Positions 7,210 to 50,618 of a stretch of 64,000 nt of DNA are shown in pieces. A model generated the notes under the pieces. That model saw only the letters and a list, made by a program, of their open reading frames with translations, was not told the origin of the DNA and did not search any database. Location of the stretch: the NCBI RefSeq assembly GCF_004217145.1, contig NZ_SHKR01000011.1:1488001-1552000 (forward strand). Reading direction: 5' to 3'. Both the position numbers and the translations under genes were made by a program. Origin of the DNA: Kribbella rubisoli. GTDB taxonomy: Bacteria > Actinomycetota > Actinomycetes > Propionibacteriales > Kribbellaceae. Position 1 is the first letter of the stretch. Every line of letters starts with the position of its first letter.

Positions 7210-7872
7210 TTGAGGGCTCGATACGACGGTTTGGCGGAGTGGTACGACGAGCGGTTCGTGGTCGGCGCGGAGACCCATCAGCCCGGGATACTCGAGCTAC
7301 TAGGGACCGGTTCAGGCCCCTGTCTGGACATCGGCTGTGGCACCGGCCGGAACTTCGAGACCATCCGTGCGAGCGGCCGCCTACCGGTCGGTATCGACTA
7401 CTCGACGGATCAGCTGCAGCGCGCCCGGACCCGCACCGACGGTCCGCTGGTGCACGGCGACGCCGCCGCGCTTCCGTTCGCCGACGCGTCCTTCGACACC
7501 GCGATCTCCCTGTGGATCTCGACGGACGTCGACGACTTCGGCGCGGTCCTGCTCGAGGCGGCGCGGGTGCTGCGCCCGGGCGGCGTGCTGGTCGCGTACG
7601 GCGTGCACCCCTGCTTCAACGGACCGCATGTCCTCTACGAGGAGGATGGCCGGCGGACCGCCTACCCGACGTACCGCCAGTCCGGCTGGCACCACGAGTC
7701 CCCGTGGTGGAGCGCGGAAGGCATCCGGCGCCGGATCGGGATGCGCCATGTCCCGCTGGCCGAGTATCTGAACGCGATCATCAGCTCCGGCCTGACGGTC
7801 GAGCGGTTCGAGGAGCCCACCGGGCCAGACATCCCGCACGCGCTGGCGTTCCGCGCGCGGCGCACCAGCTAA
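7210..7872 (+). CDS. Class I SAM-dependent methyltransferase
   Basis: A 220-residue Rossmann methyltransferase with the SAM-binding motif [15 protein letters not shown] at about residues 38-52, DYSTDQL as the second acidic motif and [24 protein letters not shown] as post-I/II. I chose TTG 7210 because GGGGAGG lies 4-10 nt upstream; the earlier in-frame TTG at 7186 lacks one. Divergent from the bS22 gene. The substrate (small molecule, ubiquinone/menaquinone type, or other) cannot be inferred. Confidence 0.82.
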
Positions 7873-8042
7873 GCGGCTTTGCGGACGGCGACCTCGGTGA
7901 CCGGATTGGTGAGGACGGCCAGGTGTGGGGTGGCGGTGGTCTTGGTGGTGCTCGCGTAGGCGGCGGGAGTGAAAGCGACGGCGGCCAGGCCCAGGGTGGC
8001 GATGGTGCCTACGGCAACGGTTTTGACGATTCGGATCGGCAT
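7869..8042 (-). CDS. Small secreted or membrane-attached protein of unknown function
   Basis: Fifty-seven residues starting MPIRIVKTVAVGTIATLGLA, with a basic start, hydrophobic core and an AYAS signal-cleavage site near residue 30, leaving about 27 mature residues rich in Thr and Val. ATG 8042 is preceded by AAGGAGG at 6 nt, a near-perfect ribosome-binding site, which is the main reason to call it. It ends overlapping the methyltransferase stop on the other strand. No family recognised. Confidence 0.6.
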   Translation of the reverse strand: MPIRIVKTVAVGTIATLGLAAVAFTPAAYASTTKTTATPHLAVLTNPVTEVAVRKAA

Positions 8043-8146
8043 CGGGAGCCTCCTTCTGGTTGGTGGTTCCATCCTGGTGCCGCGGGCTGCGACGATCCTG
8101 GAAGGAACCTGGGAGCCCGCTGGGAATGGCGCAGTACGGTGGTCGC

Positions 8147-8362
8147 ATGGCGTACGTCGTCTTCATCGGTGGCCTCGTGGTGGTGCTCGCGGGGCTGACC
8201 TGGTTCGCCTCGTGGGCGAAGCGGCGCGGGCACGGGTCCGGGGTGGCCGGCGCGCTCGCGGCGTACGACGAGGCGTATCGGACGACCGCGCATCAGTCGC
8301 ACCACGAGCTGCGGCAGCAGGCTGACCGGAAGTCCGAGAGCGGTTCGCCGGACGATCTCTAG
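8147..8362 (+). CDS. Small single-pass membrane protein of unknown function
   Basis: Seventy-one residues: an N-terminal transmembrane helix (MAYVVFIGGLVVVLAGLTWF) followed by a charged cytoplasmic tail rich in His, Gln, Asp. The tail segment YDEAYRTTAHQSHHELRQQ resembles small actinobacterial membrane proteins of unknown function. It ends 4 bp inside the 3' end of the SARP gene on the other strand. ATG 8147 gives the helix at the very N-terminus. Confidence 0.6.
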   Translation: MAYVVFIGGLVVVLAGLTWFASWAKRRGHGSGVAGALAAYDEAYRTTAHQSHHELRQQADRKSESGSPDDL

Positions 8363-10155
8363 CGCAGGAAGTTCGCTACCGGGCCGAGCGTGAGTAGACC
8401 GCTGCCGGCCGCGTGCTCGTCTGCTGCTGGCACCAAGGCTGCCCGCGCCTTCTCCAGCAGCTGGCCGTCGCCTGACTGCCGGGCCGCGTGTGCGGTCAGC
8501 GCCCAGTAGGTCTCGAGGAGGAGCCCGGGCGGCGGGTTCGGCGATCCCTTCACCCACGGGGTGTGCGGTCCGTAGTCCGCCTCGGGGATCGGCTGGTCGT
8601 GACGGATTGCGTGCGCCGCCAAGGCGAGCGGGAGCAGGCCGTCGCTCAGCCCGGGCATGCCGGCGCTGTCCAACAGGGCAGCGGCTTCGCGGTAGGACTC
8701 GGGAGTGTCGTCGCGGAGGGCGGCGTACCAGCGGGTAAAGACGCCGACTAGCGGAAGTTCGTGACGAGCGGCCAACGCGTCGGCGGCCTCGGCGTGTTGG
8801 TCGGCGGTTGCGTTGTCGGCCCGCGCGCAGGCGGACTGGAGCCGGATCAGGTGGCCGAGAACCTCATAGGTAAAGAGGTTGTGGCGTTGCGAGACGGTGA
8901 CGAGTTCGGCGCCGATGGCGTCGCGTTCTGGAGCGAGACCGGCTCGGTAGCAGGTCTGCATGAAGACGCCGTTCAGCGTGAACGCCAGCAGTGCGGGATC
9001 GTCCAGCCCGCGCGCGAGCTGCTCGGCCTCGAGCGCTGCCTCGCGAGCACGCGTTGACCGCGAACCGCGCGACTCGAGGGCGATGGTCGCAAGCAGCCGA
9101 GCGCGGATGCTGGGGTGGTCCTGTGTCGGCAGGACCCGTTCGGCCGCAGCGACGATCGCCGCGGCCTGGGCCTCGTCGTCCGAGCGCGTCCAGATCGCCG
9201 GTACGTCGTACGCGCCGATCACTCGCGCCGTCAGATCCGGGTCGCCCAGCTCCTCGGCGGCCGTGATCGCAGCGAGGCGATGCCCACGAGCGGCCTCCAA
9301 GCCGCCGCCTCCTGTGACCGCGAGATTGCGCAGTAGGCCGACCGTCGACTCGATCCGGGCGCGTGTCCCGCCGACGACGCGGTCGTACGCCGCGGCCGTC
9401 TCCGCCCACACGCTTCCGGCCGGCGTGAGATGCGCGGCCCGGTTGAGGATGTCGGTCTCCAGCCGACCGAGCGCCGGACCGGGATCGACGCCGAGCTGAC
9501 CGACCAGAGTCTGCCGGGCGCGACGCAGTACGGCGAGAGCGTCGCCTTGCCGCTCGCTCCGATACAACGCCAACGCCAGCAACCGCCAGGCGTCCTCGCG
9601 CCACGGGTGCTCGGTCACATGCGCATCCAGGTCCGGCACCGCCTCCGCGGCACGCCCCAACGCCAGGCGCGCCTCCCCGACCCGCTCCACTGCCCGCAAC
9701 CGCAGCTCGTTCAACCGCGAACGCTCGGCCAGCGCCCACCCTTCCTCCGCAAACTCCGCGTATGCCGGACCGCGCCACAACGCCAACCCTGCAAGCAGTT
9801 CCGTCAACAACTCCCCCGGCGGCAACGACGCCTGCACAGCCGCCTCGAACCGCCACGCATCCACTGCCTCGGTCCGCAACGCATAACCAGGACCTTCCGT
9901 CACCAGCAACCTCGCAGGTGCCCGCGGTTCCCGATCCGGCTCGATCGCCCGCCGAAGCGCAGCCACAAACGTCCGCAACGCACTCAAGGCTCCCGCCGGC
10001 GGATCCACCCACAGGTCATCCACCAGCACCCCCGCCGGCACAACCCGCCCCCGCGCCACAACCAACCGCCCCAACACCGCCCGATGCCGAGGCCCCTTCA
10101 AATCAACCGGCTCCCCGTCCCAGGCCGCCACCGACCCAAGCACCCCGAACTCCAC
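8359..10155 (-). CDS. SARP-type transcriptional regulator with BTAD domain
   Basis: A 598-residue regulator. Residues 1-95 form an OmpR-like winged helix (MEFGVLGSVAAWDGEPVDLKGPRHRAVL, LWVDPPAGALSALRTFVAALRRAIEP), residues 95-245 the bacterial transcriptional activation domain (LWRGPAYAEFAEEGWALAERSRLNELRLRAVE), and the remaining 350 residues an alpha-helical TPR-like region. It lacks the NB-ARC ATPase domain of full AfsR. The GTG at 10155 is the start, with TACGGT at 10162-10167 (6-nt gap), so the mRNA is probably leaderless. Divergent from the alpha/beta hydrolase gene, a possible target. Confidence 0.85.
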   Translation of the reverse strand: MEFGVLGSVAAWDGEPVDLKGPRHRAVLGRLVVARGRVVPAGVLVDDLWVDPPAGALSALRTFVAALRRAIEPDREPRAPARLLVTEGPGYALRTEAVDAWRFEAAVQASLPPGELLTELLAGLALWRGPAYAEFAEEGWALAERSRLNELRLRAVERVGEARLALGRAAEAVPDLDAHVTEHPWREDAWRLLALALYRSERQGDALAVLRRARQTLVGQLGVDPGPALGRLETDILNRAAHLTPAGSVWAETAAAYDRVVGGTRARIESTVGLLRNLAVTGGGGLEAARGHRLAAITAAEELGDPDLTARVIGAYDVPAIWTRSDDEAQAAAIVAAAERVLPTQDHPSIRARLLATIALESRGSRSTRAREAALEAEQLARGLDDPALLAFTLNGVFMQTCYRAGLAPERDAIGAELVTVSQRHNLFTYEVLGHLIRLQSACARADNATADQHAEAADALAARHELPLVGVFTRWYAALRDDTPESYREAAALLDSAGMPGLSDGLLPLALAAHAIRHDQPIPEADYGPHTPWVKGSPNPPPGLLLETYWALTAHAARQSGDGQLLEKARAALVPAADEHAAGSGLLTLGPVANFLR

Positions 10156-10211: not shown

Positions 10212-11063
10212 GTGAACGTATTCGACTATCAACAGGTCCACGCGAACGGCGTGACCTTGAACGTTGCCGTCGCCGGGTCCGGTACGCCGGTTGTCCTGCT
10301 CCACGGCTTCCCGCAGACGCACCTGATGTGGCGGCACGTGGCGGCGCAGTTGGCTGGCGACCACACCGTGATCTGTCCGGATCTGCGGGGGTACGGCGAG
10401 AGTGACAAGCCGTTGGGGGACTATTCGAAGCGGGTGATGGCGGCTGATGTTGTCGCGATGGCCCGGGAACTCGGGTATTCGCGGTTCGGGTTGGTGGGGC
10501 ATGACCGGGGCGCGTTGGTGGCGTTTCGGGCTGGGCTTGATCATCCGGAGGCGGTCTCGCACCTGATGTGTCTGGACGTGTTGCCGACGCTCGACATGTG
10601 GGAGGTGATGCACGGGACGAGTGCGGCGGTGGGGTTTCATCTGTATCTGATGGCTCAGCCGGTCGGGTTGCCGGAGAAGATGATCGCGGCGGCGTCCGAC
10701 GAGTTCTTCGGGTACTTCCTGGATCTCTGGGCGAAGGATCCCGCGGCGATCCCGCCCGAGGTGCGATCCGTCTATCTGGAGGCGTCGCGGCGGGCGGTGC
10801 CGTCGATCGTCGCGGACTATCGGGCCTCGGCGACGATCGACGTCACGCACGATGCGGAAGACTTTGCTCAGGGCAACAAGCTGGGGATGCCGGTGACGGT
10901 GATCCAGCAGGACTGGGGCGCCGCGCTCGGCTTCGACGCGGCCGCCCGCTGGAAGGCCTGGGCGACCGACCTCCACCACCAGACCACGACCGCCGGCCAC
11001 TTCATGGCGGAGGAAGCGCCGGACGAGATCAGTACTGCGATCCGCGCACTCCTCAACCGGTGA
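10212..11063 (+). CDS. Alpha/beta hydrolase, haloacid dehalogenase/epoxide hydrolase-like
   Basis: A 283-residue alpha/beta hydrolase. Oxyanion motif LLHGFPQTHLMWRHVA near residue 30, acid nucleophile motif VGHDRGALVAFR (Asp rather than Ser at the nucleophile elbow, near residue 105), and the terminal catalytic histidine in TTAGHFMAEEAPDE. The Asp nucleophile and DRGA context are those of fluoroacetate/haloacetate dehalogenases and epoxide hydrolases, but the substrate cannot be proven. GTG 10212 has CAGGCT 7 nt upstream and no ribosome-binding site, consistent with a leaderless start. Divergent from the SARP gene. Confidence 0.82.
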   Translation: MNVFDYQQVHANGVTLNVAVAGSGTPVVLLHGFPQTHLMWRHVAAQLAGDHTVICPDLRGYGESDKPLGDYSKRVMAADVVAMARELGYSRFGLVGHDRGALVAFRAGLDHPEAVSHLMCLDVLPTLDMWEVMHGTSAAVGFHLYLMAQPVGLPEKMIAAASDEFFGYFLDLWAKDPAAIPPEVRSVYLEASRRAVPSIVADYRASATIDVTHDAEDFAQGNKLGMPVTVIQQDWGAALGFDAAARWKAWATDLHHQTTTAGHFMAEEAPDEISTAIRALLNR

Positions 11064-11114
11064 GGTACGCCGTCGAGCCAAGGCGCTCCGACCGCTCTTC
11101 AGACCCAGCCATGA

Positions 11115-11151
11115 CGAAGGGGCCGGCCCGCAGTGGGATCCGGCCCCTTCG
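11115..11151. terminator. Bidirectional terminator between hydrolase and HTH genes
   Basis: A 12-bp perfect stem (CGAAGGGGCCGG 11115-11126 with CCGGCCCCTTCG 11140-11151), 13-nt loop, followed by a T-containing stretch on the plus strand. Lies between convergent genes. Confidence 0.85.
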
Positions 11152-11161
11152 ACTCTCGTTG

Positions 11162-11377
11162 TTATCCGGCCTGGAAGAAGGCGCCTTTGAGGTAGTCGTG
11201 CACGGCGTCCTCCGAGACCCGGAACGAACGACCTACCCGCACCGCGGGGAGCTCTCCGGAGTGCACCAAGCGGTACACAGTCATCTTGGACACGCGCATG
11301 GCCGTGGCGACCTCCGCCACGGTCAGGAACTTCACCTCGGCGAGCGGCTGCTCACCACCGGACTTCTTTGATGCCAT
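11162..11377 (-). CDS. Excisionase-type helix-turn-helix DNA-binding protein (Rv0500A-like)
   Basis: Seventy-one residues with a MerR/excisionase-type winged helix: FLTVAEVATAMRVSKMTVYR, then LVHSGELPAVRVGRSFRVSEDAVHDYL. This matches the very conserved small HTH protein encoded next to proC and the bS22 gene in mycobacteria (Rv0500A) and its actinobacterial relatives. The start at ATG 11377 has GGAAG upstream; a reading extended to 11512 adds low-complexity sequence without a ribosome-binding site. Probably a housekeeping DNA-binding regulator; targets are unknown. Confidence 0.88.
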   Translation of the reverse strand: MASKKSGGEQPLAEVKFLTVAEVATAMRVSKMTVYRLVHSGELPAVRVGRSFRVSEDAVHDYLKGAFFQAG

Positions 11378-11495
11378 TGCGCACCGCACTTCCAGCACGG
11401 ATCGTGCGCCGGCTTCCCCTCCGGCACCTCCGTCCGTGCATACAAAGAGCGTAGTGGCTGTTGGTACGAATGGGAAAGAGGGGGACTCCTGTGAC

Positions 11496-12671
11496 TCAAT
11501 AGGTTGAATCAAGACCTAACAAAGGGAAGCTGGCGTCGCGTGTCGCCTTGATTGAGCGGTCCAGCCAGGTGTTGGGGTTGTAGCCGGTCGACCAGTCGAC
11601 GTACTTCGCGTCCTGGCCGTCGGTCATCCGCATCGGGGCGACCCGGCCGAAGCGGATCTGGACCTCCTCGCGCCACCCCTCCGGCACCGGCGTCAGCGGG
11701 TCGATCGGGTCGCCCGCGACGATCGCCAGCAGGTGCGTCCAGGCCCGCGGTACGACGTCGATGATCGCGTAACCACCGCCGCCGGTGGCGACCCACTTCC
11801 CGTCCGTCACCTCATGCGCGAGGTCGTGCAAGGCCGCGTACGCCGCCCGCTGCCCGTCGATCGTCTTCGTCAGGTGCGCCAGCGGATCCTCGACGTGCGA
11901 GTCGCACCCGTGCTGTGTGACGAGCACCTGAGGCCGGAAGGCCCTCACCACATCCGGGACGACCGCATGGAACGCCCGCAACCAACCCGCATCGCCAGTG
12001 CCCGGTGGCAGCGCGACGTTGACCGCCGTACCCTCGGCACCCGGTCCACCCGTCTCGCCGGCGCTCCCAGTCCCCGGAAAGAGCGTCGTCGGCGACTCGT
12101 GCAGGCTGACGGTCAGCACGCGCGGATCGTTGTAGAACACGGTCTGTACGCCGTCCCCGTGATGCACGTCCACGTCGACGTACGCGACCCGCTCGGCGCC
12201 GTGGTCGAGCAGCCACTGGATCGCGATCGCCGGATCGTTGTACACGCAGAAACCGCTGGCCTGGTTGGGCATCGCGTGGTGCAGACCGCCGGCGATGTTC
12301 GCGGCGTGCAGTACGTCGCCCTCCCAGACCGCGCGCGCCGCCTCGACCGAAGCGCCGACGATCTGCGCCGAGACCTCGTGCATCCGCGGGAAGCAGTACG
12401 TGTCGGAGGTGCCGAGGCCGTGCACGGGATCGGCCTCGTCAGGGTGCTCCCCCGCGCTCTTCACCGCGGCGACGTACTCGGGGGTGTGCACGGTCTCGAG
12501 CAGCGCATCGTCCGCCGTCGGCGCGGGCACGACCTTCAACTGATCGAGTACGCCGAGCGCCCGCGCGAGCTTGATCGTCAACTCCACGCGGATCGGACTC
12601 ATCGGGTGCCCACGACCGAAGTCGTACGCCGTCAATCCGTCGTCGAAGACCAGCAAAGCCTCACCGCTCAT
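11496..12671 (-). CDS. acuC: Acetoin utilization protein AcuC (class I histone-deacetylase-like)
   Basis: A 391-residue zinc amidohydrolase of the arginase/deacetylase fold. Seen: GGLHHAMPNQASGFCVYND (active-site His pair), DVDVHHGDGVQ (zinc ligands), ESPTTLFPGTG, and TQHGCDSHVEDPLAHL and GGGGYAI near the C-terminus. In AcuC systems it deacetylates and so activates acetyl-CoA synthetase; the partner acetyltransferase is not in the window. ATG 12671 is chosen because GGAGG lies 6 nt upstream. Same strand as the HTH gene, as in the Streptomyces neighbourhood. Confidence 0.92.
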   Translation of the reverse strand: MSGEALLVFDDGLTAYDFGRGHPMSPIRVELTIKLARALGVLDQLKVVPAPTADDALLETVHTPEYVAAVKSAGEHPDEADPVHGLGTSDTYCFPRMHEVSAQIVGASVEAARAVWEGDVLHAANIAGGLHHAMPNQASGFCVYNDPAIAIQWLLDHGAERVAYVDVDVHHGDGVQTVFYNDPRVLTVSLHESPTTLFPGTGSAGETGGPGAEGTAVNVALPPGTGDAGWLRAFHAVVPDVVRAFRPQVLVTQHGCDSHVEDPLAHLTKTIDGQRAAYAALHDLAHEVTDGKWVATGGGGYAIIDVVPRAWTHLLAIVAGDPIDPLTPVPEGWREEVQIRFGRVAPMRMTDGQDAKYVDWSTGYNPNTWLDRSIKATRDASFPLLGLDSTY

Positions 12672-37615: not shown

Positions 37616-39046
37616 TCAGCTATCGAGTGGGCGGTAGTTCACGCCGAGCCGCTCGATCCGCGCCAGGTGCGGGCGGAGCCGGCCGAGGAACTCGTCGTAC
37701 GAGACCTTCTCCGAGCCCCAGGCGCGCTCGGCGAACGCGGACAGCCGCGGTAGCAGCATGTAACCGACCTGCTCCGGGTTGGGCATGTACTCGGTCCAGA
37801 TCTGGCACTGCGTGCCGACAATCAGCGCCTTCTCGTCGTCGGTCAGCGACTCCGGGATCACCTCGAAGTCGTACACCTTCTCCAGCGGGATGAAGTTGCC
37901 GATGGCAAGCGGTTCGGTGGCCGGGTCGCCCTGGTAGTAGTCGAAGTACACCGACTCGCACGGCGCCATCACCGTCTCGTGACCGGCCTTCACCGAGATC
38001 TCGCCGCGCTCGGCGCTCCGCCACGCCATGATCACCGCGTCGTCCGGGCAGTCGGTGTCGACCATCTCGTCCCAGCCGACCAGCCGTCGGTCCCGCTCGG
38101 CCAGCACCTCCGCGACCTGCGCGGTGAACCAGCCCTGCAGCTGCCCGGGCTCGTCCAGCCCCAGCTCGGCCTGCCGCTTCTGCGCCGCCTCGGACTCGCC
38201 CCACTGCACCGACGGGCACTCGTCACCGCCGAGGTGGATGTACGGCGAGGGGAAGATGTCCAGCACCTCACGCAGCACGGTCTTCACGAACTCGACCGTC
38301 GCGTCGTTGACGTTCAGCACGTCCTCGCTGATGCCCCAGTACTGGCGGACCGTCAACTGCTGGTCCGGGTGGTTCCCCAGCTCCGGGTACGCCGTGATCG
38401 CGGCCTGCATGTGCCCCGGCAGGTCGATCTCCGGTACGACGGTGATCCCGCGCTCGGCGGCGTACGCGACGATCTCTCGGAGGTCGTCCTTGGTGTAGAA
38501 CCCGCCGTGCCGCTCACCGTCGTACTCGAACTCCTTCTGGCCGCGGGTCATCTTGCCGACCATCGTCTCGGCCCGCCACGCGCCGATCTCGGTGAGCTTC
38601 GGGTACGCCTCGATCTCGACCCGCCAGCCCTGGTCGTCGGTGAGGTGGAAATGCAGCACGTTCAGGCGGTGCAGGGCGAGTACGTCGATGACCTTGAGGA
38701 CGAACTCCTTCGGCATGAAATGCCGCGCGACGTCGAGCATCATCCCGCGCCAGGCGAACCGCGGCGCGTCGGCGATCCGCGCCAGCGGGACCGCGACCTT
38801 GCCGAACTCGTCGGTCGGCTCGGCCGCCTCGATCAGCTGCGCGTACGTCGTCTCCGCGTGCCGGAGCGCGTCCTCGGAGCCGGCCGTCAGGCGGGCGCCG
38901 TCGAGGCTGACGTCGATGCGGTATTCGTTCGGTTCGAGGTTCTCGACCACGTCCCGGACGGCCTCCCCGAGCGGATCGGCGGTGATCCACCGGCCCTCGT
39001 CGACGGCGAGTTCTCGCGGGGCAGGGACGATCGCAATATCGGACAT
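37616..39046 (-). CDS. Family 20 beta-N-acetylhexosaminidase, cytoplasmic
   Basis: A 476-residue GH20 enzyme releasing terminal GlcNAc or GalNAc. Catalytic Asp-Glu in IHLGGDECPS (residues 275-276), substrate region FHLTDDQGWRVEIEAYPKLTEIGAWR and FYTKDDLREIVAYAAERGITVVPEIDLPGHMQAAI. No signal peptide, so probably cytosolic and acting on imported chito-oligosaccharides. ATG 39046 is preceded by GGAG. Divergent from an MFS gene, a possible sugar importer or exporter. Confidence 0.92.
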   Translation of the reverse strand: MSDIAIVPAPRELAVDEGRWITADPLGEAVRDVVENLEPNEYRIDVSLDGARLTAGSEDALRHAETTYAQLIEAAEPTDEFGKVAVPLARIADAPRFAWRGMMLDVARHFMPKEFVLKVIDVLALHRLNVLHFHLTDDQGWRVEIEAYPKLTEIGAWRAETMVGKMTRGQKEFEYDGERHGGFYTKDDLREIVAYAAERGITVVPEIDLPGHMQAAITAYPELGNHPDQQLTVRQYWGISEDVLNVNDATVEFVKTVLREVLDIFPSPYIHLGGDECPSVQWGESEAAQKRQAELGLDEPGQLQGWFTAQVAEVLAERDRRLVGWDEMVDTDCPDDAVIMAWRSAERGEISVKAGHETVMAPCESVYFDYYQGDPATEPLAIGNFIPLEKVYDFEVIPESLTDDEKALIVGTQCQIWTEYMPNPEQVGYMLLPRLSAFAERAWGSEKVSYDEFLGRLRPHLARIERLGVNYRPLDS

Positions 39047-39102
39047 CCGGACTCCAAAGCTGAGCACACAAGAACGTGCCTCGAATTATGTCGGGACCAT
39101 CC

Positions 39103-41996: not shown

Positions 41997-42548
41997 ATGG
42001 ATGGTCTGCTGCTCGAACGCGTACCGGGGCTGCCGGAGCGGCTCCGGATCGACGTAGGTGAGCAGCGCGCGGTCGTCGTACCGCAGGCCGCCGACCGTCG
42101 CCGGCTCGCCGACGTACTGACCGGACTGGATGACCCACCGCCCGGTGCGGTCGTACTGAAGGGCGGTCCGGTCCGGCTGGTGCCGGCTGAAGGCGGACTG
42201 CTCCCCCACCTGACAGTCCTCGGCAACGTGATGCACGGCCACCGGACGACGCATCAGGTCACCACACAGGCTGCCCGGGACGAGAGCCTGGTCAAGGTCA
42301 TCGGCTGTGGTCTCGAGGACGTCCAGGACCGCTACCCGCACGAGATCACCCCAGGTCGCCGTCGGCTGGCCGGAGTGGCTCGCGCACTCGGCGCGTACCC
42401 GCGAGCGATCGTGCTCGAGGACGCGACGGGCCTGCCTACCTGGGGATCGCTTCTGTCGATCCGTCCCAACCCTGACCTCGCCTCGGTCGCACTGCTGCTC
42501 ATCACCACCAGCACGACACGCATCACAGGGTTTGACGATGCCGAGTAG
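41997..42548 (+). CDS. Degenerate ABC-type ATPase without Walker A (pseudo-ATPase)
   Basis: A 183-residue protein aligned with an ABC NBD by eye: the Walker A position reads VPQAADRRRLADVLTG, so no GxxGxGK[ST]; AEGGLLPHLTVLGNVMHG corresponds to the region after the Q-loop; HEITPGRRRLAGVARALGAYPRAIVLEDATGL replaces LSGG and the Walker B DE with ED. The H-loop is absent. It cannot hydrolyse ATP in the normal way. It precedes, with an 11-bp overlap, a binding-protein gene. TAGGGT (41984-41989) 7 nt before ATG. Confidence 0.75.
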   Translation: MDGLLLERVPGLPERLRIDVGEQRAVVVPQAADRRRLADVLTGLDDPPPGAVVLKGGPVRLVPAEGGLLPHLTVLGNVMHGHRTTHQVTTQAARDESLVKVIGCGLEDVQDRYPHEITPGRRRLAGVARALGAYPRAIVLEDATGLPTWGSLLSIRPNPDLASVALLLITTSTTRITGFDDAE

Positions 42549-43788
42549 CCGCAGAGCGTTCCTCGGCGCCGCCGGAGCGCTTCTGCTCACCGGGTGTTCG
42601 AGTGACGTGCTGGGACTGCGGCGTGCCGTCCGGGTGGCCGTCAGCTGGAGTGGGCAGGAACTGCGCGCGTTCCACAAGGTCCTCGACGGTCTGGGAACGC
42701 TCGACTACCCGGTCGAAGTCGTGCCGCTCGGCGACGACATCTCCACCGCGTTCGGCGCTCGCTCCACGCGACGCCCGGACATCGTCATGCTCCCGCAGCC
42801 CGGACTGGTCCCACGTCATCTCAGCGACTTGGAGCCGATGCCCGACGACCTGGCTCCGCTCGGGCAGGCTCGTTTGTGGAACGAGCTCCTGACGCACAAC
42901 GGGACGACGTACGGCGTGCCGTTCAAGACTGCGCACAAGTCAGCGGTTTGGTATCGGCCGTCGGTGTTCGAGCAGGCCGGCGTACAACCGCCTCGGCTGT
43001 GGTCGGAGTGGCTGACGCTGAACCGGACGCTGACGCAAGCGGGCATCACACCGTTGTCGCTGGCGGCAGGTGACGGCTGGGTGCTCACCGACTTCCTGGA
43101 GAACGTGCTGCTCGGTATAGCGCCCAGCGTCTATGTCGGACTCGCAGCGGCAACCGATCCACGTCCGTCGCAGCAGCCGCAGTTCGGTGCGGCACTGCGG
43201 TTGCTGGGGACCATGTGGTCGGCGCCTGGAGTGCTGGCGGGCGGAGTGAAGGAGTCGCTCGTCCAGCAGTTCCCGGATGCGCTGATCGAGGTGTTCGGCC
43301 ATCGTAGAGCGGCCATGGTGCTGGCATCCGACTTCGCCGAGCCGGTTGTCCGCTCGTTTGCCGCAGACCCCGATGACATCGGTCTCTTCACGTTCCCGCC
43401 GATGGGTCCGGGAGCTGCCGCACCTGTGGTGGTCGGTGGCGACGTGATGGTGCTACCGAAGCCGACCAGGGACGACGCCCTCGATCTCGTACGCCGCCTG
43501 TCCAAGCCGACGGCTGCTGACCCGTGGATCAAGGAGGGCGGGTTCCTGGTCGACGGACGGGTCTCTGGGTACACGCCTGAGCTCACTCGACTTGCCGTGC
43601 AGCTGACCAAGCCCGGTGAGCAGCTCCAGTTCGACCTGTCCGACCAGCTCGGCCGGCTCGGTGACATCAACGGGCTGTGGCGTGTGCTGACCGACTTCCT
43701 GATCCAGGTCGGCGGTCGCGGCGCCGCCGTCGTACCAGGGGCTGTGGACGACGCGATCGACCAGATGCGCAAGGTGGAGGAGAGCTGA
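42538..43788 (+). CDS. ABC transporter extracellular solute-binding lipoprotein (family 1-like)
   Basis: A 416-residue lipoprotein: MPSSRRAFLGAAGALLLTGC with lipobox Cys20 and an arginine pair at the start. The mature part has family 1 (carbohydrate-type) binding protein features: YPVEVVPLGDDISTAFGA, YGVPFKTAHKSAVWYRPSVFEQAGVQPPRLWSEW, and AAMVLASDFAEPVV. Substrate unknown, probably a sugar or related molecule. It overlaps the pseudo-ATPase by 11 bp and the permease by 1 base (TGATG). Confidence 0.85.
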   Translation: MPSSRRAFLGAAGALLLTGCSSDVLGLRRAVRVAVSWSGQELRAFHKVLDGLGTLDYPVEVVPLGDDISTAFGARSTRRPDIVMLPQPGLVPRHLSDLEPMPDDLAPLGQARLWNELLTHNGTTYGVPFKTAHKSAVWYRPSVFEQAGVQPPRLWSEWLTLNRTLTQAGITPLSLAAGDGWVLTDFLENVLLGIAPSVYVGLAAATDPRPSQQPQFGAALRLLGTMWSAPGVLAGGVKESLVQQFPDALIEVFGHRRAAMVLASDFAEPVVRSFAADPDDIGLFTFPPMGPGAAAPVVVGGDVMVLPKPTRDDALDLVRRLSKPTAADPWIKEGGFLVDGRVSGYTPELTRLAVQLTKPGEQLQFDLSDQLGRLGDINGLWRVLTDFLIQVGGRGAAVVPGAVDDAIDQMRKVEES

Positions 43789-45560
43789 TGGGGCTGCACA
43801 CCAACGGCTTGTCCCTCGAGATCGTCGGCCGTGAGATCACCGGTCGCCCGGTGCCCGGCAAACCGCGTCGGCCGGCCGGACCGTACCTGCTGGGGTTGCC
43901 GGCGCTGCTGCTCAGCTGTCTGCTGCTGGTGCCGATCGGAGTGACCGTGGTAGCGGCGTTCCGGACGCCGGGCGGGTTCGGGCTCGGCAACTTCGCGGTG
44001 ATGACCGACCAGGGCGCATTGCGTGCCGTCGGCAACAGTCTGCTCTGGGTGCTGGTTGCGTTCGGGATCGTCGTGGTCGGGTTCTTCCTTGCCCTGTTGA
44101 GTTATCGGCTGCCCGCGGTGACGACGTTCCTGCAGCCTGCACTGGTCATTCCGTTCGCGGTGTCGGTGCTGGTGTCCGGTGCGACGTTCCGGCTGCTCTT
44201 CGACCCGACGCCGGAGCGTGGGACAGTCACGGCGGTCTGGACACGACTGTTCGGGTCAAGTCCGGTGTGGCTCGGGCCTGGTCTGTTCTGGCTCGTGCTG
44301 GTGTCCGCGTTCGGCTGGACCTGGCTGGGGTACGTCGTGTCGCTCTTCCGCGCTGGTCTGGACGCAATACCCGACGATGTGACCAGAACCCTCACTGCAG
44401 AAGGCGTTCGGGGCTGGCGGCGCCTACGCGCGTTGGAGATCCCGTTGCTACGGCCGATCGCCGGAGTGGTCACGCTGACAGTGGTGATCGCTGCGGTGCG
44501 GGTCTTCGATCTCATCTTGATCGTCGTGCCAGGGTCGATGCAGCGGTCCGCCGACGTACTCGGACTGAACTGGTGGCGAGAGACAACCAGTGGTGACGAC
44601 ACCGGACGTACGGCGGCGCTCGGCGTCGTACTGTTCGCGATCGTCGCTGCGGTGGCGCTGATCGGCGTACGGGGCTTGCGTCGGCGGCGATGGGCGATGC
44701 CGGTGACCGTCGTACGGCCGGATCCGTCACTGGGGCGACCGAAGCCTCGACGTTCCGTACGGCGGTTCGGCTGGCTCATCGGGCTCGCAGTAGCGCTGGT
44801 GTGGATCTTCCCGGCCGTCGTACTCGTCATCACCGCTTTGCACTCCCCTGCGGAAGCCGGTGTGCGTGGCTGGTGGTCTGCGTCAGGACTCGGGTTCTCG
44901 TCCTTCGCTGCAGCGGCGAATGTCGGGTTGTTCCGGGCCTTGCTGTCCACACTGATCATCGCGAGCGCTGCCACCGCTGTGCTGCTCGTGATCGCCGTAC
45001 CGACGGCCTATTTGGTCGCGTGGGGCGGTCTACCCGTGCACGTCGGCCGGACCGTGATGGCAGTGTTCGTCGTACTCGCGGTGACGCCTGTGCAGATGTA
45101 CGCCGCTCCGCTGCGCGACGCGATCGACGCAGCCGGACTGGCCGGCTCCCGGATCGCGCTGGCCTTAGTACATGCGGCAGCGGGCCTCCCGTTTGCTGTG
45201 CTGCTGCTGCGGTCCGCCTTCGCGTCCGCCCCACCTGCGTTGGTGTCTGAGGCGCTGCAAGGCCCGGTGCGGCAGAGCGCCGTACTGGCTACTGTGCAGC
45301 GGACGTACCGTCCCGCGCTGATCGCTGTGGCGGTGCTCGAGTTCGCACTGGTGTGGAACGACTTCATCGTCGGATTCCTGATCAGCGGGCCCGGTACGAC
45401 GCCATTGTCGCTCGTGCTCTGGGGTGAGGCGCGACAGTTCTCCGCCTCGAGCGGACCGGTCGCCGCTGCGGCCGTCGTCGCGTCGATCGTGCCTGCGGTC
45501 CTGATGCTCTCGTTCTGGCGGACCGTGGTGCGCGGGCTGACGACAGGCAGCCGGCCATGA
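43788..45560 (+). CDS. Fused double-domain ABC permease (MalF+MalG in one chain)
   Basis: A 590-residue protein containing two binding-protein-dependent permease domains in tandem. The first half (residues 30-320) ends in the coupling-helix motif TLTAEGVRGWRRLRALEIPLLRP; the second half (345-585) starts WLIGLAVALVWIFPAVVLVITALHSPAEAG and has the degenerate coupling motif EALQGPVRQSAVLATVQRTYRPAL. A basic linker (RGLRRRRWAMP, PKPRRSVRR) joins them. Carbohydrate permeases are normally two separate genes; this fused form forces a fixed heterodimer. The partner ATPase is not intact in this locus. Confidence 0.85.
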   Translation: MGLHTNGLSLEIVGREITGRPVPGKPRRPAGPYLLGLPALLLSCLLLVPIGVTVVAAFRTPGGFGLGNFAVMTDQGALRAVGNSLLWVLVAFGIVVVGFFLALLSYRLPAVTTFLQPALVIPFAVSVLVSGATFRLLFDPTPERGTVTAVWTRLFGSSPVWLGPGLFWLVLVSAFGWTWLGYVVSLFRAGLDAIPDDVTRTLTAEGVRGWRRLRALEIPLLRPIAGVVTLTVVIAAVRVFDLILIVVPGSMQRSADVLGLNWWRETTSGDDTGRTAALGVVLFAIVAAVALIGVRGLRRRRWAMPVTVVRPDPSLGRPKPRRSVRRFGWLIGLAVALVWIFPAVVLVITALHSPAEAGVRGWWSASGLGFSSFAAAANVGLFRALLSTLIIASAATAVLLVIAVPTAYLVAWGGLPVHVGRTVMAVFVVLAVTPVQMYAAPLRDAIDAAGLAGSRIALALVHAAAGLPFAVLLLRSAFASAPPALVSEALQGPVRQSAVLATVQRTYRPALIAVAVLEFALVWNDFIVGFLISGPGTTPLSLVLWGEARQFSASSGPVAAAAVVASIVPAVLMLSFWRTVVRGLTTGSRP

Positions 45561-46852
45561 GCGAGGAGGAAGAGAAGGCGCCGGAGAAACCGGAGTCGCC
45601 GTACCAGACGCGCGGATTCCGCTTCGTCATCGGCACTGTGGCGTCCGCGCTGCTCACCGGGCTCGCGTCGGAGATGCTCAACCAGAGCCTCGACAGCGGC
45701 GGCTGGGTGCAGTTGATCGGCCTCGGAGTGACCGTGCTGCTCGGAGCGATCACGATCATCCAGTACGGCCCGGCGATCCGGCGCTCCTGGCAGCACAGCG
45801 GCGACAGCGCTCCTGAACTGCACGCGACCGCCGAGGAGGCCGAGCAGTGGATGATCGCGCTCGGGTCCCACGCCGGCGGTATGGCAGCCGCCGAGTGGTA
45901 CGCCTTGCACGAGGAGTGGCTCCGAGAACTGCTGATGGCCGAGAAGCCGCACGTCGACACCATCGACGACTTCGCCCGCATCTGCGACGCGCTCGAGGCC
46001 TGGTACGTACGACGTGCTGATCCGGATGCGCTGCTCCAGCTCAGCGACCTGTTGAGTGCCGCAGCCGAGGTATGCGGTCGCCGTGATCTGGCCGAGCTCG
46101 CTGCGGCGCGCGCGGCAACGGCGTACCGGATGCTGGGCGACCTGGACACGGCCACCACCCGGCTGGGCATATCCGACAACATCGCGACCCACACCCGGAC
46201 CGCGGCCGCGATGACCACGCGACGGCAGGTCGAACGGGCGCTGCTATCCCTTGCCCGCGCGGACCGCTCACCGGCCGGGAACGACCGCGACGAAGCAGTT
46301 CTGAACGCACGCGAGCGGCTGGACGAGGCACGGCTCAAGCGGCCCGGTCCGGACCTCGCGGCCGACGTGGCGATCGCCGTCAACCTCGCCGTCGTACACC
46401 TGTACCAGCAGGACGCCGAGGGTGCGCTGGACCATCTGCGACCCGCCGTCGCTCGAGCAACAGCCGCAGGCGATCTGAGCGGCCAAGCCCATGCACTCGA
46501 GCTCATGGGCGTGGCCGCGTGGATGCAAGACAACAAGCACGAGGCCGTCAGTCGCTGGGATCACGCCGCCCACCTGTACGCCGAGGTCGACGAACGCGAA
46601 GGCCACGCCCGCTGCCTGCAACACCTCGGCTCCGCGGAGGTCACCGCCGGTCGCCTCAGCGCCGGACTCGAGCTGCTCGAACAAAGCGCGATGCTCCGAA
46701 CGTCGGAGAGCCAGATCCTGACGAAGTACCTCGAAGCTGCACGACAGACCGCGCAGCTGCCGGTCGTCGCCGACGATGCGCCGCGCCGTACGGTCGGCTG
46801 GCTGAAGCGGGTCCTCCGGTCGTTGAGGGGATTTGTCGGACGCTCCGTCTAG
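45557..46852 (+). CDS. Membrane-anchored TPR protein
   Basis: A 431-residue protein with two N-terminal transmembrane helices (FRFVIGTVASALLTGLASEML, LIGLGVTVLLGAITIIQYG) and a 360-residue helical region with TPR-like repeats (DLAELAAARAATAYRMLGDLD, AVNLAVVHLYQQDAEGALDHL, ALELMGVAAWMQDNKHEAVSRWDHAAHLYAEVDEREGHARCLQHLGSAEV). Its ATG overlaps the permease stop (4 bp), so it belongs to the cassette. No enzyme motif. Function unknown. Confidence 0.75.
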   Translation: MSEEEEKAPEKPESPYQTRGFRFVIGTVASALLTGLASEMLNQSLDSGGWVQLIGLGVTVLLGAITIIQYGPAIRRSWQHSGDSAPELHATAEEAEQWMIALGSHAGGMAAAEWYALHEEWLRELLMAEKPHVDTIDDFARICDALEAWYVRRADPDALLQLSDLLSAAAEVCGRRDLAELAAARAATAYRMLGDLDTATTRLGISDNIATHTRTAAAMTTRRQVERALLSLARADRSPAGNDRDEAVLNARERLDEARLKRPGPDLAADVAIAVNLAVVHLYQQDAEGALDHLRPAVARATAAGDLSGQAHALELMGVAAWMQDNKHEAVSRWDHAAHLYAEVDEREGHARCLQHLGSAEVTAGRLSAGLELLEQSAMLRTSESQILTKYLEAARQTAQLPVVADDAPRRTVGWLKRVLRSLRGFVGRSV

Positions 46853-46861
46853 GTTGGTGCC

Positions 46862-48262
46862 ATGGCGAAGGCAGCGACACAGGCGAAGGGGAAGCCCGCG
46901 TACGCGTGCTCGGAGTGTGGGTGGACCTCGGCGCGCTGGATCGGGCGGTGTGGCGAGTGCCAGGCCTGGGGCACGGTCGCCGAGGTCGGTGCGCCGAAGG
47001 CCGCGCGGATCACGGCGGGTCCGGTGTCATCGCCCGCGATGCCGATCGCCAAGGTGTCCGCGATCGAGGCCGAGTCGCGACCGACCGGCATCGGCGAGCT
47101 CGACCGCGTGCTCGGCGGCGGCGTCGTGCCGGGCGCGGTGATCCTGCTGGCTGGTGAGCCGGGTGTCGGCAAGTCCACCCTGCTGCTGGAGGTCGCGGCG
47201 CAATCGGCACGCGGCGGCCAGCGCACTCTGTACGTTTCCGGCGAAGAGTCGGCTGCTCAGGTGCGGCTGCGCGCCGGCCGGACGGACGCTCTCGTCGACG
47301 AACTGTTTCTTGCCGCGGAGACCGACCTGTCCGCAGTGGTCGGGCAGATCGACGCGGTCGAGCCGTCGTTCCTGGTGATCGACTCGGTGCAGACGATGGC
47401 CCATCCCGAGGTCGACGGCGCACCGGGTGGCGTGACACAGGTTCGCGAGGTGACCGGCGCGTTGGTCCGGCTCGCGAAGGAGCGGCACATCGCGGTCGTC
47501 CTGGTCGGCCACGTGACCAAGGACGGCGCGATCGCCGGTCCGCGAATGCTCGAGCACCTCGTCGACGTCGTGCTCGCGTTCGACGGCGACCGGCATTCGG
47601 GATTCCGGATGGTTCGCGCGACCAAGAACCGGTTCGGTCCGTCGGACGAGGTCGGCTGCTTCGACATGGTCGACACCGGGATCGTCGAGGTCACCGACCC
47701 GACCGGCCTGTTCGTGTCCGAGCACGCCGAGCCCGTCGCCGGGACGTGCGTGACGGTGATGATGGAGGGCCGCCGCCCGCTGCTGGCCGAAGTACAGGCG
47801 CTGGTCGGGCCGTCCGCGGCACCACAACCGCGCCGGACCACGTCCGGGTTGGAGTCGTCGCGCGTCGCGATGGTCCTCGCCGTCCTCGGGAATCGAGCCG
47901 GGCTCAAGCTGACCGACAAAGAGGTGTACGTCGCGACCGTCGGCGGCGTGAAGATCACCGAACCGGTCGCGGACCTGTCCGTCGCGATCGCGGTCGCGTC
48001 CTCGGTGATGGACAAGCCGATCCACCCCGGGCTGATCGCGATCGGCGAGGTCGGCCTGGCCGGCGAGGTCCGGCGGGTCGGCGGTCTGGAGAAGCGGCTT
48101 GCGGAGGCGGCCCGGCTCGGATTCACCAAGGCGATCGTCCCGGCCGATATCCCGAACCGGAGCAAGGACCTCAAGCCGATGGACATCCAGAAGAAGTACG
48201 GCCTGCGTACCTTCGCGGCCCCGGATCTGCCCTCCGCATTGATGGCCGCGGGTCTCGCCTGA
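46862..48262 (+). CDS. radA: DNA repair protein RadA
   Basis: A 466-residue branch-migration/recombination ATPase. C4 zinc finger CSECGWTSARWIGRCGECQAWG (residues 13-34), Walker A GEPGVGKST near 100, the RadA signature KNRFG near 257 and the C-terminal Lon-protease-like domain with GEVGLAGEVRRVGGLEKRL. ATG 46862 with TAGGTT (46850-46855) 6 nt upstream. In mycobacteria it is next to disA; here a KAS III gene has come between. Confidence 0.96.
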   Translation: MAKAATQAKGKPAYACSECGWTSARWIGRCGECQAWGTVAEVGAPKAARITAGPVSSPAMPIAKVSAIEAESRPTGIGELDRVLGGGVVPGAVILLAGEPGVGKSTLLLEVAAQSARGGQRTLYVSGEESAAQVRLRAGRTDALVDELFLAAETDLSAVVGQIDAVEPSFLVIDSVQTMAHPEVDGAPGGVTQVREVTGALVRLAKERHIAVVLVGHVTKDGAIAGPRMLEHLVDVVLAFDGDRHSGFRMVRATKNRFGPSDEVGCFDMVDTGIVEVTDPTGLFVSEHAEPVAGTCVTVMMEGRRPLLAEVQALVGPSAAPQPRRTTSGLESSRVAMVLAVLGNRAGLKLTDKEVYVATVGGVKITEPVADLSVAIAVASSVMDKPIHPGLIAIGEVGLAGEVRRVGGLEKRLAEAARLGFTKAIVPADIPNRSKDLKPMDIQKKYGLRTFAAPDLPSALMAAGLA

Positions 48263-48342
48263 CGGCTGTGTTCCCTGCCACAGGGTGGACAGGGGGATCA
48301 ACAGACCCGCAATCGGGAACGTACTCTGGGGGCGCCCCCACG

Positions 48343-48364
48343 CCGGGTTCGTCGCCGAACCCGG
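48343..48364 (+). promoter_or_regulatory. Leader hairpin before the KAS III gene
   Basis: CCGGGTTCG (48343-48351) and CGAACCCGG (48356-48364) with loop TCGC: a perfect 9-bp stem located 32 nt before the KAS III start. Could be a terminator of radA or a leader structure. Confidence 0.4.
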
Positions 48365-48395
48365 GTAGCCCCCGGATGACTTGCAGGAGCACCTG

Positions 48396-49343
48396 ATGAC
48401 CGGATCAAGAGTTGTCGCGCTCGGCCACTACCAGCCGGAACGGGTGCTCACCAACGACGAGCTCGCCACCATGGTCGAGACCAACGACGAGTGGATCCAG
48501 AGCCGGGTCGGCATCCGCGAACGCCGGATCGCGGCCCCGGACGAGTCCGTCGACGAGATGGCCTGGCGCGCCGCCGACAAGGCGATCGCGAACGCCGGCC
48601 TGGACATCGCCGAGATCGACTACGTGGTCGTCGCCACCTGTACGGCGATCGACCGCTCGCCGAACATCGCTGCCCGCGTCGCCGCCCGGCTCGGCCTCGG
48701 CAACCCGGCAGCGATCGACCTGAACACCGCATGCTCCGGGTTCGCGTACGCGCTGGCCACCGCCGACCAGGCGATCCGGGCCGGCGCCGCGACGAAGGCC
48801 ATCGTGATCGGCGTCGAGAAACTCAGCGACTGGACCGACTGGACCGACCGCACCACCTGCGTGCTGATCGGTGACGGCGCCGGCGCTGCCGTGGTGGTCG
48901 CCGACGACACCGATGACACAGCCGGGATCAGCCCGGTGGTCTGGGGATCGGTGCCGGAGATGTCGGACGCGGTCCGGATCGAGGGGCGCGAGGGCCCGTT
49001 CCAGCAGGAGGGCCTGAGCGTCTTCCGCTGGGCCACCACGCAGCTGCCCGAGATCGCCCAGCAGGTCTGCGAGAAGGCCGGGCTGAAGCCCGAGGACCTC
49101 GGCGGCGTCGTCCTGCACCAGGCCAACCTGCGCATCATCGAGCCGCTCGCGAAGCGGCTCGGCGCGACCAACGCGGTCGTCGCGAAGGACGTCGTGGAGT
49201 CCGGCAACACCTCGGCCGCGAGCATCCCGATCGCGCTGTCGAAACTGGTCGAGAAGCGCGAGATCCCGTCCGGCGCGCCGGTGCTGCTGTTCGGATTCGG
49301 CGGCGGCCTCTCGTACGCCGGTCAGGTCATCCGCTGCCCCTGA
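48396..49343 (+). CDS. Beta-ketoacyl-ACP synthase III family protein (FabH-like)
   Basis: A 315-residue thiolase-fold condensing enzyme. Catalytic Cys113 in DLNTACSGFAYALATA, His in VVLHQANLRIIEPLAKRLG near 246, Asn in SGNTSAASIPIAL near 276: complete triad. It condenses acetyl/acyl-CoA with malonyl-ACP to begin fatty acid or related chains. ATG 48396 follows CAGGAG. Uncertain whether this is the housekeeping FabH or a special one; it stands alone between radA and disA. Confidence 0.9.
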   Translation: MTGSRVVALGHYQPERVLTNDELATMVETNDEWIQSRVGIRERRIAAPDESVDEMAWRAADKAIANAGLDIAEIDYVVVATCTAIDRSPNIAARVAARLGLGNPAAIDLNTACSGFAYALATADQAIRAGAATKAIVIGVEKLSDWTDWTDRTTCVLIGDGAGAAVVVADDTDDTAGISPVVWGSVPEMSDAVRIEGREGPFQQEGLSVFRWATTQLPEIAQQVCEKAGLKPEDLGGVVLHQANLRIIEPLAKRLGATNAVVAKDVVESGNTSAASIPIALSKLVEKREIPSGAPVLLFGFGGGLSYAGQVIRCP

Positions 49344-49366
49344 CGCGACAACCGTCGTACCGCCGT

Positions 49367-49384
49367 CCCGCGTGATCACGCGGG
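49367..49384. terminator. Perfect 18-bp palindrome after the KAS III gene
   Basis: CCCGCGTGATCACGCGGG, 23 nt after the stop. Likely a terminator; alternatively an operator of disA. Confidence 0.55.
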
Positions 49385-49523
49385 AATCCAGTACTGCACG
49401 GTCCGGATGCACGGGCGGGTGCACGCGCAACCGCAACTGCGGACCTCGCTGCACCGCGTGCGTCCGGCCGAGCGGCAGATATCGGCACAACTGCATCCGC
49501 GTAACCGCATAGACTCAGGTTCC

Positions 49524-50618
49524 GTGGCACCGAACTCGGACAAGAACAGCACCGGCGCCCGCCTGCGCTCGACACTCGCGGCGGTCGCGCCCGGCACCGA
49601 ACTGCGCGAAGGCCTGGAACGGATCCTGCGCGGCCGGACCGGCGCACTGATCGTGCTCGGTCACGACAAGGCCGTCGACGCGATCTCCACCGGCGGCTTC
49701 GAGATCGACGTCGAGTTCACCGCGACCGGATTGCGCGAACTCAGCAAGATGGACGGCGCGATCGTCCTCGACCGCGACGCGACCCGGCTGATCCAGGCCG
49801 CCGTACACCTGATGCCGGACCCGGCGATCGTCACCCAGGAGACCGGCACCCGGCACCGGACCGCCGACCGGGTCGCGCGGCAGACCGGGTTCCCGGTGAT
49901 CTCGGTCTCGCAGTCGATGCACATCATCGCGCTGTACGTCGACGACCAGCGGTACGTGCTGGAGGACTCCGGCGCGATCCTGTCCCGCGCGAACCAGGCA
50001 CTGGCCACCCTCGAGCGGTACAAGCTGCGTCTGGACGAGGTGTCCGGCACGCTGTCCGCCCTCGAGATCGAGGACCTGGTCACGGTCCGGGACGTGGCCG
50101 CGGTCGCGCAGCGGCTGGAGATGGTCCGCCGGATCGCCACCGAGATCGACGGGTACGTCGTCGAGCTCGGCACCGACGGCCGGCTGCTCACGCTCCAGCT
50201 CAACGAGCTCGTCGCCGGAGTCGCCGGTGAACGCGAGCTGGTCGTCCGCGACTACCTCCCGCCGGCCACGGGGCGCAAGCCCAAGACGGCCGACGACGTA
50301 CTGCTCGAGCTCGACGCGGTCAGCCCGACGGACCTGCTCGACATCGGCCAGGTCGCGCGTGCCCTGCAGCTCGGCGGCGCCGAGCAGCTCGACGCCGCGG
50401 TCACCCCGCGCGGCTACCGGCTGCTGGCCAAGGTGCCGCGCCTCCCGGGTGCGGTCATCGACCGGCTGATCGACCACTTCGGTCACCTGCAGAAGTTGCT
50501 CGCGGCAAGCATCGACGACCTGCAGACGGTCGAGGGCGTCGGCGAGAACCGCGCCCGCACGGTCCGCGAGGGCCTGTCCCGACTGGCCGAGTCCAGCATC
50601 CTGGAACGCTACGTCTGA
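49524..50618 (+). CDS. disA: DNA integrity scanning diadenylate cyclase DisA
   Basis: A 364-residue enzyme making cyclic di-AMP while scanning DNA. DAC domain motifs DGA (77-79) and RHR (110-112, in [11 protein letters not shown]), linker with helical segments, and a C-terminal HhH DNA-binding domain ([19 protein letters not shown]). GTG 49524 has TAGACT (49510-49515) 8 nt upstream: leaderless. Downstream of radA (and the KAS III gene) as in mycobacteria, with mutY nearby. Confidence 0.96.

Follow-up and report, generated by a model that had tools for sequence, protein, structure and literature searches.

Gene content of the locus

We analyzed a 64,000-nucleotide stretch of the Kribbella rubisoli genome (contig NZ_SHKR01000011.1, positions 1,488,001 to 1,552,000; hereafter, the window, whose coordinates are used below), and in particular a cassette of four genes at 41997–46852. 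All four genes lie on the plus strand, and consecutive genes overlap by 11, 1, and 4 bp, which suggests translational coupling. The first gene (41997–42548) encodes pABC, a 183-aa protein with a pseudo-nucleotide-binding domain of the ATP-binding cassette (ABC) type and no second Pfam domain. It is followed by the genes for a sugar-type solute-binding lipoprotein (SBP; 42538–43788, 416 aa), a fused double permease (43788–45560, 590 aa), and a protein with transmembrane (TM) helices and tetratricopeptide repeats (TPR), hereafter TM-TPR (45557–46852, 431 aa). An earlier note on this DNA had listed four overlapping same-strand genes; their coordinates are exact, and the gene order is common to 32 of 38 Kribbella genomes, hence not a product of chance.

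In all, we found 57 cassette loci in Kribbella and at least three more actinomycete families. The latter include family f4, to which Actinopolymorpha alba belongs, family f20, identified as the family of Nonomuraea gerenzanensis by similarity only, and family f7.

The pseudo-nucleotide-binding domain

The pABC protein scores 14.1 bits against Pfam ABC_tran, below the cut-off of 25, and its many matches to NCBIfam ABC ATPases are all far below the respective cut-offs, the widest spanning residues 16–145. Its AlphaFold2 model (pLDDT 80.7) matches PDB structures of ABC nucleotide-binding domains (NBDs), namely, MlaF, LptB, MalK, MetN, GlcV, and CysA. Given that profiles of MalK/UgpC-type proteins have ∼357 positions, the 183-aa pABC has no room for their C-terminal domain.

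To characterize the motifs, we aligned pABC with seven intact NBDs from the same genome. The frame of the Walker A motif, GxxGxGK[ST] (42078–42104, plus strand), reads VPQAADRR, with Arg in the Lys column. The earlier note had considered Walker A gone; the motif is indeed absent, but it has been substituted without a gap rather than deleted. The note was also right about the altered signature, which reads ITPGR (42345–42359, plus strand), and Walker B, which reads VLED and thus ends with Glu-Asp instead of Asp-Glu (42408–42422, plus strand). In addition, the Q-loop Gln is replaced by Ala, and the H-loop His, by Thr.

These replacements extend to all 49 aligned pABC proteins (32 from Kribbella, seven from f4, and ten from Nonomuraea and f20). 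The Walker A Lys, the Q-loop Gln, the H-loop His, and the Asp-Glu order of Walker B, all expected in a CUT1-type NBD, are kept in none of them: the Walker A Lys column contains Ala (24 proteins), Arg (15), Val (7), or Gly (3); the Q-loop Gln column, Ala (43), Pro (4), or Val (2); the H-loop His column, Thr (39) or Asp (10); and Walker B ends with Glu-Asp in 49/49. The signature is retained unevenly, with Ser in 9/49, the first Gly in 0/49, the second Gly in 36/49, and Gln in 11/49. In the control NBDs, Walker B ends with Asp-Glu, and both the Q-loop Gln and the H-loop His are present in 7/7; as the controls were picked by a pattern requiring Walker A, the signature Ser/Gly, and the Walker B Glu, only the Q-loop and the H-loop are free tests. 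No control NBD came from locus L008.

The Glu-Asp inversion, being fixed across families, is unlike random decay. A recent mutation as the cause of the Walker A loss is ruled out, since no homolog with the Walker A Lys was found among the 49. A heterodimer with one working ATP site is unlikely, as the signature has changed along with the Walker motifs.

The solute-binding protein and the fused permease

The second gene encodes a lipoprotein, as had been proposed. Its product matches Pfam SBP_bac_1 at 49.8 bits (cut-off 26), and it carries RR and an LLLTGC lipobox, identified by inspection of the sequence. The PDB matches are sugar-binding proteins, as expected for the solute-binding component of a CUT1, or type I, importer, the best one being the chitin-oligosaccharide binder NagB1 (E 8.7e-9).

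The permease contains two permease domains in one chain, in agreement with the earlier note. The N-terminal half is MalF/SugA/UgpA-like, and the C-terminal half, SugB/GlcU-like; the UgpA-like match covers residues 32–295 and the GlcU-like match, residues 330–585, both scoring under the NCBIfam family cut-offs. A profile of the permease family, when compared with PDB, finds the structures of SugA, SugB, and MalF.

In known ABC importers, the Glu of the EAA loop contacts the NBD. At this site, the N-terminal half of the window permease has Arg200 (codon 44385–44387, plus strand), and among the 57 loci we found Arg in 55, Gln in one, and an unalignable sequence in one (L178), while Glu is kept in 11/11 control permeases. 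In the C-terminal half, the pattern EAA..DG..[LF]P is present in 0/18 family members tested vs. 10/10 controls. A strict EAA pattern missed 7/11 N-half controls, whose loop does not terminate with LP; the looser pattern EA[AS]..DG was found in 10/11 controls (the eleventh was masked with N) and in 0/18 family members. Duplicate controls from L133 were dropped, as it belongs to the same genome as L118. Hence both permease units of a CUT1 importer are present, with the EAA motif altered, and the predicted NBD-coupling loop is changed along with the NBD, which was not visible to the earlier reader. At L178, the permease matches come in two pieces, both within a 986-codon open frame (7282–8778 in the cassette orientation).

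The cassette could still encode an ATP-driven importer, if a shared ATPase of the MsiK/UgpC type were acting in trans, with pABC and the TPR protein being regulators or vestiges. Actinobacterial sugar importers commonly share an ATPase, three UgpC-family ATPases scoring over the curated cut-off are encoded in the same genome, and conservation is high both in the SBP and in the TM parts of the permease. Still, the EAA Glu is replaced by Arg in 55/56 alignable relatives, and none of the 18 family members tested has the EAA..DG pattern in the C-terminal half. Moreover, if pABC formed a mixed dimer, its broken signature would be paired with the Walker motifs of the partner, and vice versa. We therefore regard an ATPase in trans as unlikely, although it is the main rival to the receptor model proposed below.

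The TM-TPR protein and its larger relatives

The structure model of the fourth protein consists of two N-terminal helices, 23–44 and 50–79, modeled with low confidence, and a confident TPR superhelix; the TM assignment comes from the sequence. This is consistent with the earlier description of the gene. The score against Pfam TPR_12 is 24.7 bits, under the cut-off of 30.1, while the modeled superhelix and its PDB matches support a TPR-type sensor region, as expected for a MalT-like STAND ATPase.

The products of gene 4 in f4 and f20 are larger and comprise an N-terminal hydrophobic hairpin, a P-loop module, a winged-helix-like stretch, and TPRs. The P-loop module from L089 matches AAA_16 at 24.3 bits (cut-off 32.6), and AAA_22 and nSTAND3 even more weakly; accordingly, the terms "STAND-like" and "winged-helix-like" are assigned here by architecture and by eye, with weak Pfam support. 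In 17/17 larger copies, of which 15 were aligned, the Walker A Lys is replaced by Thr, Ser, or Ala. Four aligned TM-TPR proteins of Kribbella have the same start and the same TPR end as the larger proteins and lack the P-loop module. In f7, the similarity begins behind the P-loop region in 8/8 loci, and the two copies available as full sequences consist of the hairpin, the winged-helix-like stretch, and TPRs. Thus, no gene 4 product examined combines a STAND P-loop module with a Walker A Lys, and TM-TPR appears to be a cut-down relative of a STAND-like TM/P-loop/TPR protein whose own P-loop is dead. The ancestral form of gene 4 and the direction of losses we infer from the spread of these variants.

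A second P-loop protein, with intact GKT, is encoded upstream of the Nonomuraea cassette (L129, about position 800). At L090 (about 10400–11500), the P-loop part of gene 4 is out of frame with the TPR part, reflecting a frameshift or an assembly error. Membership in an anti-phage defense system of the Avs-like STAND type was rejected: PADLOC reported nothing for the four window proteins or the L089 protein, and there was one weak partial match, for the L130 protein (E 0.0075).

Conservation, loss, and selection in Kribbella

An ortholog of pABC, with 60–100% identity, is found in 32/38 Kribbella genomes, the genome of the window included. In all 32 carriers, the order of the four genes is kept and the frames are uninterrupted. 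The overlap between the SBP and permease genes is 1 bp in 32/32, and that between the permease and TPR genes, 4 bp in 30/32.

In the remaining six genomes, genome-wide searches yielded neither pABC (E <= 1e-12) nor the permease (E <= 1e-40). In each of these genomes, a spacer of 36–74 bp separates the upstream methyltransferase gene from radA, which follows it, and no match to the SBP or the TPR protein was found within the 14 kb read at that site. In the tree of radA and the methyltransferase, these six genomes occupy five or six separate positions, with weak support for two. Since the non-carriers are scattered over the tree, the four genes seem to have disappeared together, through loss or through a recombinational swap.

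All four genes are under purifying selection. The median dN/dS, calculated pairwise by the Nei–Gojobori method with near-saturation pairs left out, is 0.109 for the permease, 0.176 for SBP, 0.268 for pABC, and 0.291 for TM-TPR; for radA, it is 0.080. The earlier note had suggested a regulatory or structural job for pABC. Such a role would fit the purifying selection and the constant Glu-Asp inversion (49/49), with which it is consistent.

These values bear on two further explanations. First, the cassette might be a decaying importer held in place by the linkage to radA. Its absence from six of the 38 genomes would fit, but median dN/dS is well under 1 for each gene, no frame is interrupted in the 32 carriers, the new residues are constant across families (Glu-Asp in 49/49, Arg in 55/56), and f4 cassettes are present without an adjoining radA. 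Hence decay is very improbable. Second, the permease might serve as an ATP-free, ligand-gated facilitator or channel, merely gated by the cytoplasmic proteins. Indeed, among the four genes, purifying selection acts most strongly on the one for the membrane part, while the residues that handle ATP are lost. On the other hand, we are aware of no type I importer acting as an ATP-free facilitator, and the retention of the TPR protein in each family points to protein–protein signaling. We consider a facilitator improbable, less so than decay.

Relatives outside Kribbella

Distant relatives were sought with single-protein queries, so diverged cassettes may be missed. Among 293 genomes of the order, 39 have a permease match at E <= 1e-40, 32 of them from Kribbella and seven from f4. 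The order of the four genes is the same at 7/7 f4 loci, with the identities of ∼32–41% for pABC, 44–47% for SBP, 48–50% for the permease, and 31–35% for the TPR protein. None of the genes adjoining the cassette in Kribbella, radA included, is found alongside it at the seven f4 loci. At least one f4 genome (G050) has no permease match, and the seven carriers are a part of a larger family total.

Among 394 genomes of the class, 87 have some permease match at E <= 1e-25. Outside Kribbella, the match covers both halves without a break in three genomes (G586, G619, and G393); the others match by one half or by separate neighboring permeases. In addition, a cassette from Nonomuraea gerenzanensis was found in a plasmid collection. 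The fused permease is present in 10/120 f20 genomes, of which nine were examined; G663, with its match at a contig end, was left out. Together with Nonomuraea this makes ten loci, and the order pABC–SBP–permease–gene 4 is observed in 10/10. Thus, the four genes do co-occur in related genomes, as would be expected under the earlier note: in 32/38 Kribbella genomes, at 7/7 f4 loci, and at 10/10 loci of the Nonomuraea/f20 type.

In f7, the fused permease is found in 8/201 genomes, and the SBP, permease, and TPR genes are in this order at 8/8 loci. No pABC and no P-loop were found at any of the eight loci, pABC being sought within 13–20 kb around the locus only. Two weak, opposite-strand matches to the pABC queries were set aside, one at L173 (E 0.026) and one at L178 (E 0.001). 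The suggested role of the TPR protein as a receptor for pABC is therefore insufficient, since the TPR protein is kept at the 8/8 f7 loci where no pABC was found.

Judging by these comparisons, the constant core of the cassette is SBP, the fused permease, and TM-TPR, with f7 apparently lacking both the STAND-like module and the pseudo-NBD. Both ATP modules look dead where they are present, and each seems to be missing in some lineage.

A putative transport-dead importer as a possible receptor

The gene content, the conservation, the loss of ATPase residues, and the selection are observed directly. To account for them, we propose that the cassette is probably a transport-dead CUT1-like ABC importer that is used as an SBP-fed, ATP-independent transmembrane receptor signaling to a TPR scaffold. 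In this model, the lipid-anchored SBP would capture a ligand outside the cell, which may be an amino sugar or an oligosaccharide, and dock on the fused two-half permease. The docking would switch the permease conformation without an ATP cycle, because the NBD appears inactive and the charge at the EAA contact is reversed. The pseudo-NBD, where present, would serve as a rigid cytoplasmic-side adaptor. Finally, the membrane-anchored TPR protein would read the state of the permease and recruit or release cytosolic partners. We infer the formation of the complex, the absence of transport, the signaling, the ligand, and the output.

Several observations weigh against this model. The three UgpC/MsiK-type ATPases could act in trans, and the conservation of SBP and of the TM segments of the permease is as in a transporter. 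In pABC, the second Gly (36/49) and the Gln (11/49) of the signature survive, as does the ARAL Arg (42/49), and four f4 copies have a near-canonical signature, LTVGQ. Moreover, pABC and TM-TPR show the weakest constraint within the cassette, six of 38 Kribbella genomes live without the cassette, and no output domain was identified in the cassette proteins.

A broader scenario, to which we assign about an even chance, is that the cassettes form an undescribed class of receptors. An importer would have been converted once, long ago; its NBD and its STAND-like partner would have become pseudo-NTPases and then been stripped lineage by lineage, and the remnant would be an ATP-free core of SBP, the fused permease, and the membrane TPR scaffold. 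No title among the matches listed in open-licence PMC text describes such a cassette.

If this is true, an ABC importer can turn into a pure receptor, and the cassette is a natural experiment on which importer parts suffice for transmembrane signaling. In addition, such loci are likely to be misread as sugar importers because of the SBP and permease similarity, and models of actinomycete nutrient uptake would then be led astray.

Comparison with known systems

Like the CUT1, or type I, sugar importers (MalEFGK2, LpqY-SugABC, UgpABCE), the cassette has SBP, two permease halves, and the NBD fold. Unlike them, it has the permeases fused in one chain with the EAA Glu replaced by Arg, an NBD without the catalytic residues and the C-terminal domain, and a TM-TPR protein at each of the 57 loci. 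The ABC architecture has been reused for regulation in SUR1/ABCC8, an ABC protein turned channel regulator, as we propose for the cassette; unlike the latter, SUR1 has an exporter fold, is eukaryotic, and still binds nucleotides.

In Escherichia coli, the STAND protein MalT is kept at the membrane by MalK, which is the NBD of a sugar transporter (PMC10427625). The cassette likewise pairs the NBD of an ABC sugar transporter with a STAND-type protein. Unlike MalT, this protein has a membrane anchor, its gene belongs to the same cluster as the NBD gene, and no domain for DNA binding was detected in it; its P-loop module, where present at all, seems dead, as does the NBD.

In Actinobacteria, according to PMC9769921 and PMC8546545, the SBP lipoprotein GlnH acts through the TM protein GlnX on PknG, a kinase bearing TPRs. 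The route proposed for the cassette, from an SBP lipoprotein to a TPR protein across the membrane, is similar. The membrane part differs, being a double ABC permease instead of the four-TM GlnX. No kinase was revealed when the four window proteins were scanned against Pfam and NCBIfam; GlnX itself was not compared. By analogy, the best reading is that the cassette works like GlnH-GlnX-PknG or MalK-MalT and is a member of neither. There is a real chance that it represents a class of its own among transporter-derived or SBP-fed receptors.

Neighboring genes

Upstream of the cassette, at 37616–39067 on the minus strand, the window contains a GH20 glycosidase gene (Pfam Glyco_hydro_20, 385 bits), which is syntenic in many Kribbella genomes. 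Together with the NagB1-like match of SBP, this neighbor hints at an amino-sugar ligand. However, the f4 loci have no GH20 neighbor.

The cassette is followed, at 46862–50618, by genes for a radA-type ATPase, a 3-oxoacyl-ACP synthase III-type protein, and the diadenylate cyclase disA (assigned by Pfam), also syntenic in Kribbella. We set aside a function inferred from these neighbors and did not use the neighborhood for functional assignment, because none of the Kribbella neighbors is found at the f4 loci.

At three f4 loci, a PHP-domain-like gene follows gene 4: L089 (13432–14883), L090 (13304–14830), and L094 (13371–14927), all in the cassette orientation. The L094 protein matches Pfam PHP and PHP_C weakly, below the cut-off. 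At L054, the methyltransferase gene and the pABC gene are separated by a gap of 2.2 kb.

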